Below are positions 3,443 through 30,500 of a stretch of DNA of 64,000 bases, in pieces. Numbering within the stretch: the first letter of the stretch is position 1; the number at the start of each line of letters is the position of its first letter. Under the pieces are notes generated by a model. That model had not been told where the DNA came from. It ran no database searches and saw nothing but the letters and a program-made list of their open reading frames with translations. Made by a program: the position numbers and the translations under genes. Source of the DNA: Acanthamoeba lenticulata (Eukaryota; Discosea; Longamoebia; Acanthamoebidae); NCBI GenBank assembly GCA_002179805.1, contig NAVB01000150.1:32013-96012 (forward strand). The letters run 5' to 3'.

Positions 3443-5279
3443 TCACAACTTCTCCTCGCACTCATTGTCGTCATCGTCATCATTTTCCTCAACACCTGCG
3501 GAGTCGACCTCGCTGTCATCCTCGCTCACGACGCGCTCGGCCTTTTCGCCGTCGCTGTTCTCGCTCACCTCGTCTTCATCCTCGTCCTCGTCCTCCTCGT
3601 GCGCCCATCGCGCGGCCCACCGCGACCCCGCGCCGCTGGCGCCGTAGCGCGAGCCCCAAGAGGGCGCCGCCGGCTCATCGGGCTCGCCCCGCTCGCGGCG
3701 CTGCCGCTCCTCCTCGTCCTCCTGGCGCTGGGCCTCCTCGAGGCCGGCCTCACGCTTGGCCAGCTCTTGGGCCTCCTCGGCCACCCACCGCTGGTACTCG
3801 GCCGAGTTCTCGTCCATGTGCCGGAAGAAGACGCTGTCCTCGCGGTCCTCGGGGTCCTCGAGGGTCTTGGCCCGGTAGGCCGGCGACGCGTAATCGAGGG
3901 TCTTGGCCCAGAAGCCCACCAGCGACGAGCGGCAGTTGGGCAGCTGCCGGTTTTGTGTGATCTCCCGCGTCAGGAAGTCCAGCAACGGCTGCTTGTAGCG
4001 CTGGAAGCCGAGCTCGCCCAGGCTCGTCAGGATCCGCGCTGTGATGAGGTGGCGCCGCGTCAGCATCACGCCCAAGAGCACAGAAGCAAACCCTTCGTCA
4101 GGCGCCAACACACGTACTGATGCGGAGGTTGTTGTGGCCGCTCCAGTTGAGGTTGTCGTAGCGGTCACGCCAGATGCCGGGCCATCTGGCCACCTCGCCC
4201 GTCACCTCCGACACGAGCCGGATGCCGTAGAAGTTGAGCATCAGCCTGTCGTGTGTGCGTGCGCGTTGTTAAGGTGGCGGCAGCGTTGCTGGCGCGTCAG
4301 CAGTTGGGCAGATGATAAAGTGGTGGGGAAGATGATGATGGTGGGTGGGTGGTGGTGGTGGTGGTGAGGAACCTGTAGGAGCGGATGACGCGCGTGGCGA
4401 TATCAAAGTCCTGCCGCATCAGCCGAGCCTCCGACTTGGAAAGCGCTTCGGCGTCCCAGTTGACGCCCGACGACTCGAAGACCGGGAACAGCCACTGGAT
4501 GAACCTGCGCATGAACAAGAACAAGAGAAAGGCCACAAGATGGTGAGCTTGGAGCCGTACGAATGGAAAGGGGGTGGAAGGGTCTCTTCGTTGGGGCATC
4601 GTACGAGTGCTCGTATTCGAGGCGGCGGTAGTCGGCCCACCAGAGCTCATGGAACTGGTGGATGTAGACGCGGTCGGGCAAGGAGGGCGCCTTGCCCGCG
4701 TAGAACATCCAGTTGATGCCCGCGCCAGCAGGTGCTCCTGTGAGGTCTGTTTGTTTGGCGTTAGGGCAAGTCCTCTCCTTTCTTCTTTTTTCTTTTCTTT
4801 AACTTTTGCGGTTTATTGGTATTAATAAATAGCGATAACAATAAATAGATATATTGTGTTGGGGAGGGTGGCGTACCGTGGCGAGGACGAGAGTACCGCG
4901 AAGAGAACCCATACATGTAGGAGGAGACGCCCCTCGCTGCGGGTTGGTTGGCGTTGGCATTGGCGTACCTGGGCACCACCATGAACGGAGGATCGCTATC
5001 GTCATCCTCGTCTTCGTCCTCATCTTCGTCTTCTTCGTCCTCTTCGTCGTCGTCTTCGTCGTCGTCATCTTCCTGGTCCTCGTCATCTTCCTTTTTGGGC
5101 TCGGCAGGATCGGAAGTCGTTGCTCGCCGCCGTGCTCTGGTGCCGGCCGGGTCAACCATCGAATGTGTAGCCTCGGCGTTGGCATTTGCCTGCACATGCG
5201 CGTTCGCGTTCGCGTATGGCGCCGCTCCGGGCTGAGCCACCTGGTGCAGCTCTCTCGGGTCGTTGGCGCTTGGCTCCAT
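3443..5279 (-). CDS. Opioid growth factor receptor (OGFr) conserved-domain protein
   Basis: The start at 5279 opens a first exon (5279-4877) with a low-complexity N-terminus: Asn/Ala repeats and an acidic Asp/Glu run. The following exons assemble the OGFr conserved region. The landmarks are SLPDRVYIHQFHELWWADY, a spliced HS-FIQWLFP block, GVNWDAEALS, LMLNFYGIRL, a DRYDNLNWSGHNNLRI block, and ARILTSLGELGFQRYKQPLL. All are recognisable counterparts of the vertebrate domain, and the splice phases at 4877 and around the FIQWLFP exon are consistent. The C-terminal third is charged (Glu/Arg coiled region, then Asp/Glu-rich) and stops at 3443. In vertebrates OGFr is a nuclear-envelope-associated binder of Met-enkephalin; in protists the domain's role is unknown and no peptide receptor function should be inferred. 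Confidence 0.85.
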
Positions 5280-5410
5280 CTACAGAAGGTTTCCGTTGCC
5301 GGGTCGGGTGAGTATATTTGCAGATTGAATCCTTGAAAAAAAGAAAACAAAATCAATTCCTTGAGGGGACTTTCTGGTTTGGTCATTGTTGTTGCGCCGC
5401 GTTCCGAAAG

Positions 5411-7037
5411 ATGAAGTACGGTGGGGCTGCCATGAAGCCACGACTGGGCTCGAGGTCACGCCAAAGCGCCTACGTGCAGTGGGGCCTGCTCTTTGCCGTG
5501 GTGGCTCTCCTGTCGGTCTACATTTACGTCATGTACGTGACCTTTGGTGGGGACAGTGTGGCCGACACCACCACCTCGAGCTCCGAATCTACTGCGCTTC
5601 GTGACAAAGTTGAGCAAAGCGAGCCGAAGACCGTGTGGATCGATCCAAAGTCGAAGATACACGATGAAGCTCATCAATCCGACCCAATTCTGCAGCGCAA
5701 GCGCAGGATCATCCTTTCAACTGGCCATGGTGCGTTGTGTCAAATGGATTCATGGTTCATTTCGTGAATGGTCAAAACGATTCGCTCAACGCGTCCCTTC
5801 GCCGTGGCCACGGCGCCTAGGCAAGTGGAACACGGGCGTGTGGCCTGCGTGGGGCTATGGCAAAGATGTGACGCTGAACTGGGCCGCCGCGGGCGTAGAA
5901 GTCAACAAGCAGTGCCCCGTCGAGTGCGAGATCGTGCATGAGGGCGGCTCGGGCTACGACGACGCCGACGCCGTGGTGATGGAGCTGACCAACCACCCCA
6001 AGTTTGGCTACGGGGCTGACCTGCCCATCGCGTGGCCCGAGCGGCGGCGGCCGAACCCGCGCCACTGGTACACGACCAAGCTCGACGGCCACCGCGTGCC
6101 GACCAACCTGCCCCTGACGGGCGTCTTCTACTACGAGGCCGCGCAGAGCTACCCGGGCTACACCATCAATGATGAGGCCGTGCGCTCGCGCATCGACTTC
6201 TCCATGACGCCCGACCAGACCTCCACCATGCCGGTCTCGCTCATCTGCCCGTGGGGCCGCACCGTGTCCGAATACCTGCGCCCGGCCCCGGTCAAGTCCG
6301 ACGAGCGCTTCATCGCCTACTTCAACGAGCACGGCGTGGCACCCCAGTTCCGCGACATCATCGACCAGTTCTTCCAGGTCGCCGGCGACCGTCTCCACAG
6401 CTACGGCCCGCACCGCAGCAATCGCGCCATGCCCGACGCCGCCGGTGGCAACCCCTACCAGCTGTCCAAGCGGATCGACTTCATGGGTACCTACAAGTTC
6501 ATCCTCATCACAGAGGCCATTGAGGAAGCCAGCTTTGTGGCGCCCGAGTGGAGCCACGCCCTCCTTGGCGGCGCCGTGCCGGTCTACATCGGCGCGCCCA
6601 ACATCGCCACGCTTGCTCCGGGCCCACGCGCCTTCGTCGACATCCGCAACTTTGCGTCAGGCGCCGAGCTCTGGCAATTCCTCCTCAACTTTGAGGACAA
6701 CCACCAGCGCGGCGGCGTCGAGGCCTACCAGCAGTGGTTCGACTGGAAGCACAGCGCCAAGTTGGCCTACCGCGAGGACGAGGCCAGTGCTGGCCTGGGC
6801 GTGGGCACGGGCGAGGGCGTGCGCCCGGCCTCGGAGATCGACACGGAGCACCTGCGACGCGAGATCGTGAAGTGGACCAAGCCCGTCGTCGAGGGCATCC
6901 AATCCTTTGACTCGGCCCGCGCGGCCGACTTCCACGCGACCGCTGCGCTCGCCTGGCGCTGGTTCCGCATCCACCTGGACCGTTGTGTTCACTACGCCGA
7001 GTGTCGGCTCTGCGAGCTCGTCACTAAGCTCACCTAG
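5411..7037 (+). CDS. GT10-family fucosyltransferase-like type II membrane protein
   Basis: Two exons (5411-5729 and 5821-7037, phase 1 join verified) give about 511 residues. A short basic N-terminus is followed by one membrane segment at about residues 22-45 and a Ser/Thr stem, the layout of a Golgi type II glycosyltransferase. The catalytic half shows GT10 landmarks: a central ERFIAYFNEHG block, then KFILITEAIEEASFVAPEWSH and ALLGGAVPVYIGAPN, which correspond to the GDP-fucose-binding motif of alpha-1,3/1,4-fucosyltransferases. The usual family wording is FE(N)S..DY(V)TEK, so the SFVAPEW version is divergent; donor specificity is therefore inferred. It would act on N- or O-glycans in the secretory pathway. 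The 3' end is followed by about 400 bp before the RhoGEF gene. Confidence 0.82.
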
Positions 7038-26158: not shown

Positions 26159-27313
26159 TCATCGTTGAGAGCCTCCATAGTTGATCCAGGCGAGCAGCTG
26201 TTTGCTGGTGAGCGAAAGGATGATAAACCCAACCTCACCGATGATGTAGTTCTCCTTGAAGATGCCCCATTCGGACCATTGCAGCCACAACATAACGGCA
26301 AACGTGTTGTCCTGCCACGAGCCACAGGGCAAAGTAAGTGAAGGTCCACACTTCATCATTGAGGAGGAGCAGGAGCGCACAAGGAAGAAAATGATGAAGA
26401 TGATGGCCCACACGAATCCCGGTGGATCGCCGTTCGACGCCGATTGAAAGAAGTAGCACAAGATAATGAGCCACGCCCCGAGGTGAGGCACAAACCCACT
26501 GATGAGAGGCTGCCAGTTCCTCGGTCGCTCCTTGCTCGAGAAGCCGTAGTACTTCCAGTTGGCCCTGCGCACGAGAGCCGTAACAAGTCAATCACTAGGC
26601 TAGCGTACTCAGGACCAGCAAGGCGACCTGCTCACCTCTCATGCATGGAACCAAAGATCATGGTCGTTGCTGTGAGGACGAAGATGGCAAAGAGGAGGTG
26701 GATCTCGGTCGCGCCAGACAACTGCGCTCCCATGACGTGCATGATGCTGGCCGAGATCGAGTACTCGATCCATCGGAAGTGGTTCTGATTGCGCGTGAGC
26801 CAGTACTTGTACAGCTGCCAGCCGCCAGGAAGGGCCGAGAGGAGATGGTTGAAGGCAGACATCCACAAGAACACCGCCGAGTAGTAGCCAATGGCCATAT
26901 CGGACACTTGCTTCGGGTCAGGCACATAGAAGTCTGGGCTCGACGTCTGCCAGTTCTTGACAAAGTCGCAGTACCAGGGGTAGCGGGTCGAGCTCTTCGT
27001 CAAGCCAGCAATAACCACACCTGAATTGCAAAGTGTAAGTGTCAGACAGTGAATTTTAAATGTGGACGTAGAGGGACTCACCTGTGCACAGCTGAATAAT
27101 TCCCACAATGACGTTGAACAGTCGTAGCTTCCAGTTGGGCGTGGGGCTGACGAAGTAGTCTTGACCTCCATATTCCTCTCGGCCGCAGGACATGAGCACC
27201 ACTGAGTTGGCCACCCTGGCCACAATGGCAGCTCCTCGGGTTGTCTCCTCGCCCCCTTGCTCATCCGCGAAGAAGTCCCTCACCTTGCGCGCCCAGGCCG
27301 TGCACCGTCCCAT
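26159..27313 (-). CDS. Heliorhodopsin (retinal-binding seven-helix protein)
   Basis: Four exons (27313-27082, 27020-26636, 26564-26381, 26311-26159) have verified phases and give 317 residues. The match to heliorhodopsins is strong over the whole length. Helix 3 carries NQNHFRWIEYSISASIM, with the counterion-position Glu at about residue 163. Helix 5 begins around GFVPHLGAW, helix 6 follows PPGFVWAIIFIIF, and helix 7 contains FIILSLTSKQLLAW with the Schiff-base Lys at about 304. A His in the helix 2 region (AFNHLLSA, about 136) also matches a family position. Heliorhodopsins bind retinal with inverted topology (N-terminus cytoplasmic) and do not act as pumps; proposed roles are light sensing or regulation of partner enzymes. 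The N-terminus before helix 1 is about 60 residues, longer than in prokaryotic members. No retinal-synthesis gene is visible in the window. Confidence 0.93.
26312..26380 (-). other. 69-nt stop-free intron 3 of the heliorhodopsin gene
   Basis: The intron starts GTGCGC and ends GGCAG. It is a multiple of three and has no in-frame stop, so reading through it gives a continuous frame with 23 extra residues (VRSCSS... to ...GSWQ). I call it an intron because removing it aligns the helix 6 region with known heliorhodopsins without a gap, whereas keeping it inserts polar and Cys residues in helix 6. Confidence 0.8.
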
Positions 27314-27533: not shown

Positions 27534-30500
27534 TCAATTAGGCGGGTCGTTGCAAGTGAACCGGTAGAGGCGCAGCATGAGCGAGAAGAGGATGACGGGC
27601 AAGGTGGACAGGATCTCTGAGAGACCCGCCGCCGCTGGCGGGATGACGAAGCCCGTGCCCGGGTAGAGCACGCCCGCGGCCAGCGGGATGGCGACGGCGT
27701 TGTACAGGAGCGCCCAGGTCAGGTTCGCGACAATGACGACGTGCGCACGACGCGCCAGGTCGGTCATGAGCAGCACGCCGCGCATATCGTCGCGCAAGAG
27801 GATGACGTCGCCGGCAGCGATGGCGATGTCCGTGCCACTGCCCACGGCCACCCCGACGTCAGCCTGCGCCAGCGACGGCGCGTCGTTGACTCCATCGCCC
27901 ACCATCGCAACGACGGCCTTCTTCTTCCTCCTCATGCCCTCTTGTTGCTCACTGTCGCTCGAGCTGTCATCATCATCATCGTTGTCATCATCAGAAGCGC
28001 TCGCCTGAAGGCCGCACGCGGAAGCCACGATAGCGGCGGCGCCGAGCTGCAGCCGTCGCACGCGGTCGACCTTGTCCGCCGGAGCGAGGCCGCCAACGGC
28101 GCGGGCCTCGGCGATGCCCAAGCGGCTCGCCACTGAGCGCACAGTGCGCGGCTGGTCGCCGCTCAGCATCCACACGGACGTGCCGCCTCGCTGGAGGCGC
28201 GCGACGACCTCCTTCGCTTCGGGACGAAGCGCATCTTCGAGCGCAAACCCGCACACGGCACGTCCATCGATGGCAGCCCACACGACCGTCCGCCCTTCAT
28301 TTTCGTGTCGCGCCGTGACCTCGTCGTCGTCAGCGTCGGTGTCGTTAGCCAAAGCGACCCTGTTGTCGCGCATCCACTGGCGGTTCCCAACGAGGACGGC
28401 ATGGCCGAGCACGCGCGCAGACAGACCTCGGCCCGGAACGGCGGTGTAGTCCTCCGGCTCGACCAGTTTGCCTGTCGGCAGGCATGTTTCGACGTAGCTC
28501 ACGATGGCTCGCGCGAGAGCGTGCTCGCTTCCCCGCTCAGCTGACCCGATGAGCCCGAGCAGCTGCTGGCGGCGCTGTTCGCTGTCGCCGTCGTCGGCGT
28601 CGCTGGCCTGCTGTTCCGACATGCCCTTCCAGTCTAGCCACCACTGGTCGACTACAGTGAGGCGCCCGGCAGTGAGCGTGCCGGTTTTGTCAAATATGAC
28701 GGCGTCGATGTGGCGGCAAGCCTCGATGGTGGCGCCGCTCTTGAAGACGACACCGTTCTTGGCGCCCACGCCACTGGCCACCATGACCGCCAGCGGCACG
28801 GCGAGGCCGATGGCGCATGGGCACGACACCACGAGCACGGCGATGGCGAACTGCAGCGAGAACGGCACCCAGTGGTTGTCGTCGGTGTCGACCACGCCTG
28901 GCGCGCTGAGGCTGATCCACAGGGCGAGCACGGCCAGAGCGAGCGCGAGTACGACCGGCACGAAATACGACGCGACGACGTCGGCCACCCGCTGCAATCG
29001 CGGCTTGCTGGCCTGCGCATCTTCCACCAGCCGCCCGATCGCTGGCGCGCCGACGTGCGCGTGAGTCGAGCAGAGCTGGCGGGGACAAGTCGACACAAAT
29101 AAGTACCGGCAAGGGCGCTCTCCGAGACCGGGCGGGTGACTTGCACGTGGAGGGCGCCGTGCTGGTTGATGGTGCCGCCCAGAACGAGGCTGCCGGGCCG
29201 CTTGGCCACGGGCAGCGACTCGCCGGTGACCAGCGACTCGTCCACGGCGCTAGTGCCGAGCAGGACCACGCCGTCGACGGGCACCTTGGCGCCCGGCAGG
29301 ACCTTGATCGTGTCGCCCGGCTGGACAAGCTCAACATCTACCTCCCGTTCCTCCTGCTTCGCTTCAGCCGACTCTTCGTTTTCGTCGTCCAATGATGAGA
29401 GAAGGGTGTCGCGGGGAAGAAGCAGCGCGCTTGTGGCCTGCTCGCCGCGCAGCGAGGAGACCACGTCGCAGGCCTTGCCGCGCGCCAGGGCCTCGAGATA
29501 GCGCCCCAGCATGATCAAGGTCAGAAGTATGGCAGATGTTTCGAAGAAGGACTCGCCTGTACAGTGTATTGTGAAATTAAACGTTGAAACATAAAAACGA
29601 AGACGCCTGAGGGACGTACCTTCAAAGTTGACGCCGGCCATGGCGATGATGACGGCGATTGACGAGTAGAGATACGCCGTGAGGGTGCTCAGAATGACGA
29701 GGGTGTCCATGTTGGCCTTGTGGCCATACCACAGGGCACGCACGGAGGAGCCATACAAAGGCCACGCTAGAATAAACTGGACCGGTGTGGCCAGAAGCCA
29801 GCACAAGAAGACACCCAGCGACAGCCCTGCATTCCCTCACTGAATCAGTTCTACCTGCCAAGGGGAAGACCTTGAGGCGGTGGAAGACGGGGTACGGACC
29901 TTGGGTCAGCTCCTCGTCAAAAGCCGAGTCGACGGTCGGCACATGCGGGAACACGAAGGAGATGAGGAAAACCGGCACGCTCAGGAAGGCGCCCACCCAG
30001 AAGCGCCAGCGCCATGACCGCATTTGCTTCTGAGCGCTGTTCTCGCCTGCGTTGTCATCGTTGCATAAATAAGCTCTATGGACGTAGCAGGCAAGCTGGA
30101 GACCACGCGTACCCGACAGCTCGCGGACCACACTCAGGTCGAGCCCAGACGCTGTCAACTCGTCCATCCTTGAACGAATCTCGGCCTTGTGCGGATCGTA
30201 GTCGACGATCAGCAGTCCCTTCTTCCGCTTGTAGACAGCGCGAGCGATGCCTGGCTTTCGTGCCAGCTCGACGACCGCCGCGGAGACGTCGGGAACGTCC
30301 TCTGCGGTCGCCGGCTTGACGCGCAAGACCAGGCGGGCCGCAGACGACGGCGCGCCTATCTCGGCGCCGAAGCCGAGAGCCCTGATGTCCTTCACAATCG
30401 TCGCTTCATCCATGCGCTGGGCGTCAAACGTGACCTCAGCTTTGTTTGTCATGGCGCTGTTGGACAAGGAGGAGTGAGCACACTAAAGCCCAGGACAGTG

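Follow-up and report, generated by a model that had tools for sequence, protein, structure and literature searches.

Heliorhodopsins hold their N terminus in the cytoplasm, type-1 rhodopsins have the opposite membrane orientation, and the function of heliorhodopsins is still largely open. In the paper passages covered, the work on structure and colour treats bacterial and archaeal proteins, and the work on transport treats viral ones. Within the retinal pocket, Phe203 of TaHeR is described as lying within 4.5 A of retinal (PMC8389987), F206 of 48C12 is one face of the aromatic sandwich that it forms with Y108 around the polyene (PMC6951262), and a retinal fenestration opens above the ionone ring (PMC9385722). 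A Phe at the corresponding site (BR Trp182) has been termed highly conserved in heliorhodopsins (PMC9448325), and the colour survey of 13 proteins excluded the clade of eukaryotes and viruses (PMC7807009). Transport is represented by V2HeR3 of Emiliania huxleyi virus 202, which moves protons and in which E191 has been proposed to act with W195 as a gate (PMC9448325). Regarding partners and sensors, binding of photolyase is reported for a bacterial heliorhodopsin. Two histidine-kinase rhodopsins of Acanthamoeba castellanii, which are of type 1, are described as candidate light sensors (PMC4053784).

The locus presented here lies in a stretch of 64,000 nucleotides of Acanthamoeba lenticulata DNA that was analysed as a whole (hereafter, the window). 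The gene is real, its family is known, and its pocket differs from that of the prokaryotic proteins in a way that is clade-wide. With a probability of roughly two in three, it is best explained as a heliorhodopsin of the eukaryotic clade that would carry retinal on K304 with E163 as counterion and would function as a slow, membrane-bound light sensor with an altered pocket.

Gene model, family membership and genomic setting

The spliced translation (Table 1) yields the 317-residue product of the preliminary description and contains the three residues singled out there, in the motifs AFNHLL (H136), FRWIEYS (E163) and SLTSKQLLAW (K304), but the four introns counted at that stage come down to three, all GT..AG. 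The four-intron model was discarded: with intron 3 read through, the frame stays open and the product would have 340 residues, but none of the other 16 proteins of the alignment, the Balamuthia heliorhodopsin among them, has the 23 residues thus added. Being in frame, this intron is easily misjudged and leaves the 23 surplus residues in place if overlooked. The metagenomic relative P0001 (75% identity over 60% of the query) starts just after intron 1 and runs into sequence foreign to the family precisely where introns 2 and 3 lie; since these breaks coincide with the intron sites, all three intron positions are probably common to both genes, as judged from protein evidence.

Table 1. Features of the heliorhodopsin locus and its upstream neighbour, in window coordinates.
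Feature	Position	Strand	Evidence
Heliorhodopsin gene, start to stop codon, 317-residue product	26159..27313	-	spliced translation; PF18761 5.3e-73
Exon 1, N-terminal extension of ~60 residues before helix 1, aligns with Balamuthia P0002	27082..27313	-	
Intron 1, 61 nt, phase 1, GT..AG (68 nt in C1510 allele)	27021..27081	-	
Exon 2, carries H136 and counterion E163	26636..27020	-	
Intron 2, 71 nt, phase 2, GT..AG (71 nt in C1510 allele)	26565..26635	-	
Exon 3, helix 5 and first half of helix 6, carries H233	26381..26564	-	
Intron 3, 69 nt, phase 0, GT..AG, no in-frame stop (66 nt in allele)	26312..26380	-	
Exon 4, rest of helix 6 and helix 7, carries D268, K304 and stop codon	26159..26311	-	
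H136 codon (48C12 His80)	26845..26847	-	
E163 codon (Schiff-base counterion, 48C12 Glu107)	26764..26766	-	
H233 codon (48C12 Gly169 site)	26483..26485	-	
D268 codon (TaHeR Phe203, 48C12 Phe206 site), first codon of exon 4	26309..26311	-	
K304 codon (retinal Schiff-base lysine, 48C12 Lys241)	26201..26203	-	
Copper-type P-type ATPase exons, upstream neighbour, same strand, separate from heliorhodopsin	27537..29836	-	Pfam E1-E2_ATPase and Hydrolase; homologues

The product belongs to the heliorhodopsin family, as had been proposed, with a match to nearly the whole profile: PF18761 is the sole Pfam family at E 0.001 and matches residues 63-315 over profile positions 1-241 of 242 (E 5.3e-73), and the scan of the protein gave no match to PF01036, the family of type-1 microbial rhodopsins, at the same threshold. 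Moreover, the six PDB sequences that match are all named heliorhodopsin and include 6su3, 6uh3 (48C12), 6is6 (TaHeR) and 9vfc, with E values from 6.4e-29 to 5e-20, far past chance. The SxxxK signature of helix 7 is present (S300 and the retinal lysine K304), as is the single Glu counterion of helix 3 followed by Tyr (E163 and Y164, corresponding to 48C12 E107 and Y108). 48C12 and TaHeR share with the window protein the family, the Lys Schiff base, the Glu counterion and the Arg, Ser and Glu of the core network, whereas both have Phe at the site of D268, and 48C12 also has Gly at the site of H233 and His at that of Q74. In the profile alignment with both proteins helix 6 has no gaps, and the loop between helices 6 and 7 is one residue longer in the window protein (IFKENY), so that the supposed ungapped helix 6-7 region holds for the helix but not for the loop. 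The N-terminal extension is unmatched in 48C12 and TaHeR, the PDB matches beginning at query residue 62-63. The AlphaFold2 model of the Balamuthia orthologue, built from 43 sequences (mean pLDDT 86.9), has seven long helices, two strands between helices 1 and 2 (at 78-82 and 103-108) and an N-terminal extension that is mostly of low confidence.

The assembly from which the window comes (48.48 Mb in 1825 contigs) contains six exon matches to PF18761 at two places, namely this gene and contig C1510. The C1510 copy is 96.9% identical and collinear with the window over ~6 kb, for which reason it is taken as an allele or haplotig, a paralogue being ruled out on the same grounds. The coding sequences differ in 11 codons, eight of them synonymous and three replacements (L40F, C95S, M131L), none of which falls on a named site (H136, E163, K304, H233, D268 and the others); length changes are limited to introns 1 (7 nt) and 3 (3 nt), intron 2 being equal.

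Of 20 reading frames chosen for a Pfam scan of the window, nine have a match. The neighbours are of eukaryotic type (WDHD1/Ctf4-like, copper-type P-type ATPase, BTB-ankyrin, CCCH-RING), the WDHD1 and Ctf4 matches being partial and below the Pfam cut-off. Introns, allelic copy and neighbours agree with the earlier view of a resident gene, and introns, neighbours and the tree described below rule out bacterial contamination. The assembly is also Acanthamoeba-like, in line with the amoeba-like genome first suggested: its profilin is identical at 114 of 125 positions to PDB profilin II (1f2k) and at 107 of 125 to profilin I (1acf), both presumably proteins of A. castellanii. Among the best 120 of 7993 matches to the window ATPase, the six nearest proteins have 67, 66 and then 46-50% identity, and further matches have ~34-41%, the named ones being from bacteria, archaea and one fungus.

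Relatives and the retinal-pocket site 268

A search of 5.8 billion proteins gave 130 matches, of which 120 are listed. The second best (P0002, 55% identity over 97% of the query) is an NCBI protein of Balamuthia mandrillaris already named Heliorhodopsin, which makes the window gene a new member of a known family. P0002 resembles the window protein in its N-terminal extension, which can be aligned, in having D at site 268 and in the TSKQLLAWIN stretch of helix 7, whereas ~45% of positions differ. The preliminary description held the spread of the family in amoebae to be little studied; among the titles and abstract starts searched, with preprints and most subscription papers outside this scope, no paper on a heliorhodopsin gene in Acanthamoeba, Amoebozoa or Balamuthia was found, but the name of the Balamuthia protein shows that such a gene had already been recognised in NCBI. 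No row named A. castellanii stands among the best 120 of the 130 matches; a control search with the neighbouring ATPase likewise gave no named Acanthamoeba among its best 120 of 7993 matches, and the absence of the gene from A. castellanii can therefore not be claimed.

A first tree, made by a quick method from 102 rows (the window protein with 81 of the 120 listed proteins and 20 of 80 prokaryotic loci, leaving out the viral locus L038 and the fragment P0112), groups the window protein with P0001 and P0010 (SH-aLRT 99), then with P0003 and Balamuthia P0002 (99). These lie inside a 79-row clade with glaucophyte, choanoflagellate, green-algal and diatom proteins, separate from the 20 prokaryotic loci and three prokaryote-like protein rows (support 100); the long rows P0113 and P0115 are placed unsurely. 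The product thus falls inside the heliorhodopsins with algal and other eukaryotic members, as expected at the outset, and both the profile match to PF18761 (5.3e-73) and the lysine of helix 7 (K304) withstood checking. Most rows of the clade are metagenomic proteins, which are called eukaryotic because they group with named eukaryotes. Two further members of the set may be mentioned: P0271 (eukprot scaffold2.g6951.t1) is a 501-residue protein listed with both heliorhodopsin and PF04832, the SOUL haem-binding domain, and has Tyr at the 268 site, and L038 (positions 5001-5576 of IMG/VR 3300032259_000001) is a distant viral heliorhodopsin-like sequence of 25-27% identity that keeps the sites of E163 and K304.

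D268 of helix 6 falls on TaHeR Phe203, 48C12 Phe206 and BR Trp182; counting from K241 in 48C12 as a check of the numbering places Phe at 206, Gly at 169 and Trp at 173. The site was followed in an alignment of 286 rows, comprising the window protein, the 120 listed matches of the first search, 84 proteins of a second search (257 matches, 120 listed, 36 of those already included), 80 prokaryotic loci (the best 80 of 207 relatives) and L038. Because each of the nine seeds of the second search carries D at the site, that search may favour D rows. On a FastTree tree of 285 rows, built without the 268 column and without the short row P0114, the split chosen as dividing the 268 letters best marks off a eukaryotic-side clade of 158 rows, 148 of which have an acid (D 145, E 3), the others having Y (5), V (2), F (1) or a gap (two). 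Among the 127 rows outside it there are 125 F, two Y and no acid. This split has a support of 100, with five state changes on the tree. The exceptions are partly explained: one V (P0001) is intron read-through, the single F is that of L038, where the alignment is unsure, and the five Y rows include two Chlorella proteins. The letter of L038 differs between two alignments (P or F), which makes this locus uninformative at the site.

An alignment-free text pattern, run on all three sets of rows, gives D 104, F 3, Y 2, V 1, other letters 4 (A, S, S, T) and no match 6 in the 120 first-search rows; D 35, E 3, F 42, Y 3 and no match 1 in the 84 second-search rows; and F 78, Y 1 and no match 1 in the 80 prokaryotic loci. 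The four other letters are taken for pattern matches elsewhere in the protein, and the result is broadly consistent with the alignment (D in 110 of the first 120 rows). With 148 of 158 eukaryotic-side rows acidic, Asp268 of the window protein among them, the Phe at the BR Trp182 site is not family-defining. No description of a TM6 Asp in heliorhodopsins was found in the paper passages covered, and the sequence figures of the eLife paper could show it. The core of the family is retained across this change: among the 282 rows with an acid or an aromatic residue at 268, K304 is kept in 281, E163 in 279, S300 in 281, R160 in 280 and E293 in 280.

The replacement at 268 is accompanied by others. 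At site 233 of TM5 (48C12 Gly169), the 148 acid-268 rows have H 128, W 9, Y 7, Q 3 and F 1, all but one thus carrying H, W, Y or Q, and the 126 Phe-268 rows have G 122, W 2, S 1 and F 1; the seven Tyr-268 rows have F (5) or G (2), and both V-268 rows have H. A tree-aware paired test of the two sites is not significant (four pairs on starred branches, median p 1), the independent changes being too few for the test to reach significance; covariation was accordingly set aside as proof of a contact, strong as the counts are. At site 74 (48C12 His23), the full alignment has Q in 97 and H in 39 of its 149 acid-268 rows, whereas 110 of 133 aromatic-268 rows have H. Of the His80/His23 pair the window protein keeps H136 and has Q74 in place of His23. 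The commonest letter, exceeding 70% in each set, also differs between the acid and aromatic sets at sites 194, 197, 198, 263 and 296. Compared with the pocket of 48C12, the window protein has D268 for F206, Q74 for H23, L275 for Q213 and S303 for A240. The pigment of 540-560 nm that had been predicted rests on prokaryotic heliorhodopsins, and with four differing pocket sites this prediction needs correcting.

Candidate roles and origin of the gene

In the mechanism proposed for a light sensor, K304 would bind retinal with E163 as its counterion, light would isomerise the retinal, the Schiff base would release its proton into the inner hydrogen-bond network, and a cellular partner would sense the altered state of the protein. 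In the window protein and most of its eukaryotic relatives the pocket departs from the studied bacterial and archaeal ones by the replacement of Phe206 by D268, of Gly169 by H233 and, less regularly, of His23 by Q74. D268 and H233 are probably a hydrogen-bonded or size-matched pair beside the retinal, which should alter colour and photocycle, and D268 would introduce a protonatable group into the extracellular half, hydrophobic in the prokaryotic structures. The retinal contact of Phe203/F206 and the departure of V2HeR3 at this site suggest that the eukaryotic Asp is in a position to tune colour or to transfer a proton. Light sensing with a changed photocycle is ranked as the likeliest role, and transport is possible.

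A narrower version of sensing, in which the protein directly regulates a soluble or membrane partner enzyme such as a photolyase, glutamine synthetase or a transporter, has an appreciable chance by analogy, though with the odds against it. Such partners have been reported for bacterial heliorhodopsins (PMC9529153, PMC11109279, PMC9769723), the genome holds a gene of the photolyase/cryptochrome family, and the N-terminal extension can be aligned with that of Balamuthia. The neighbourhood points to no partner, the next gene upstream being the P-type ATPase, but eukaryotic gene order says little in this respect; being a special case of sensing, partner regulation is compatible with the preferred explanation.

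More tentatively, and with the odds clearly against it, the eukaryotic heliorhodopsins may form a mechanistic class of their own, in which the TM6 Asp beside the retinal, held by His, Trp, Tyr or Gln of TM5, would act as an internal proton donor or switch on the extracellular side, the photocycle would be different and some members would move protons. As part of this proposal, the prokaryotic aromatic face and Gly would be replaced, and the His80/His23 pair would often be cut to one His.

It is unlikely that the window protein itself transports protons, whether driven or gated by light, with D268 (aided by H233) returning a proton to the Schiff base on the extracellular side. D268 does remove one of the hydrophobic residues (TaHeR Phe203) that have been cited for the lack of pumping in heliorhodopsins (PMC9529153), V2HeR3 differs from non-transporting heliorhodopsins at this very position and one turn off (PMC9448325), and His23, half of the presumed internal acceptor pair of 48C12 (PMC9726877), is Gln in the window protein. 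With the eukaryotic clade altered at a residue facing the retinal and at a site on the next helix, the argument that a hydrophobic extracellular half precludes transport may not carry over. Conversely, the other residues named for the hydrophobic half of TaHeR (Tyr109, Ala113, Met116 and Phe206) have, by register, the same letters in the window protein (Y164, A168, M171, F271), and the heliorhodopsin of the Emiliania huxleyi host gave no photocurrent with the Glu present (PMC9448325). As for V2HeR3, compared here through the numbering of the paper, it departs from the prokaryotic proteins at the same TM6 position, having Trp195 where the window protein has Asp, but its gate Glu191 is without a counterpart. 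Neither V2HeR3-type mark is present in the window protein, which has I264 in place of Glu191 and D268 in place of Trp195; the absence of the defining Glu argues against this mechanism and led to the rejection of a V2HeR3-type transporter.

Elsewhere in the alignment, 12 other rows have Glu where V2HeR3 has E191 and also carry Asp at site 268. Having two acids in one half of helix 6, they are good candidates for tests of transport; P0034, P0048 and P0052 are rows with E at the E191 site.

A recent arrival from a giant virus or mirusvirus, as a viral remnant, is very improbable for the gene that the preferred reading takes as a resident sensor. Heliorhodopsins are present in many giant viruses and mirusviruses. 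Those of mirusviruses are exchanged with planktonic eukaryotes (PMC10132985, PMC12768974), and mirusviruses are described as intron-rich (PMC12768974). The nearest relatives are, however, two metagenomic proteins that apparently share the intron positions, followed by P0003 and Balamuthia; the nine matches among the 20 window reading frames scanned in Pfam include no virus-named family, and two IMG/VR scans gave a single contig with a relative, distant at 25-27% identity. An ancient viral transfer is conceivable, as mirusvirus proteins are not knowingly among the sampled sequences. Lastly, a degenerate gene that has lost retinal binding is hardly credible given the open frame, the retention of K304 and E163, the eight synonymous against three replacement changes and the confinement of indels to introns.

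Retinal supply and other photoreceptor genes

The assembly contains CrtI, CrtYB-type and RPE65-family genes, identified exon by exon, which makes retinal made by the amoeba plausible. On contig C3 (75289-79768, L025), a CrtI-family desaturase lies divergent beside a gene of CrtYB layout, in which two matches to the CarR lycopene cyclase, only one of them passing the cut-off, precede a phytoene-synthase domain (PF00494); both halves of the CrtI match are under the whole-protein cut-off, the gene being split. The RPE65 family (PF03055) gives 25 exon matches on several contigs, and one of these pieces matches a carotenoid cleavage dioxygenase of the PDB at 2.6e-28. Among NCBIfam models, the best for the cleavage matches is the 8'-apo-carotenoid 13,14-cleaving type, far below cut-off, so that the cleavage site is not fixed. 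Taken together, a pathway from phytoene to retinal in the amoeba is plausible from these gene families, and the retinal of the proposed sensor would probably come from beta-carotene made by the amoeba and then cleaved by a member of the RPE65 family.

A second phytoene-synthase match, on C995, is probably an allele; RPE65/carotenoid-cleavage genes lie on C693 (27912-32531, apparently two in tandem), C1092, C1321, C1294 and C1736; and one carotenoid-cleavage piece has PDB matches to apocarotenoid oxygenases as well as to RPE65/BCO proteins.

Type-1 rhodopsins are represented by matches to PF01036 (E 4e-6) on C784 (14481-14765) and C378 (92456-92740), and on C784 reading frames for a histidine kinase and a response regulator lie downstream of the match. 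The histidine-kinase rhodopsins of A. castellanii are comparable in that they are candidate light sensors in the same kind of amoeba and that a PF01036 match exists in this genome; unlike the heliorhodopsin, they belong to another subfamily and carry output domains of their own. The photolyase/cryptochrome FAD domain (PF03441), a possible partner of the heliorhodopsin, is found on C1224 and C1261. The amoeba combines a single heliorhodopsin locus with at least one type-1 rhodopsin, a gene of the photolyase family and a candidate retinal pathway, and offers a non-photosynthetic setting for testing heliorhodopsin function.
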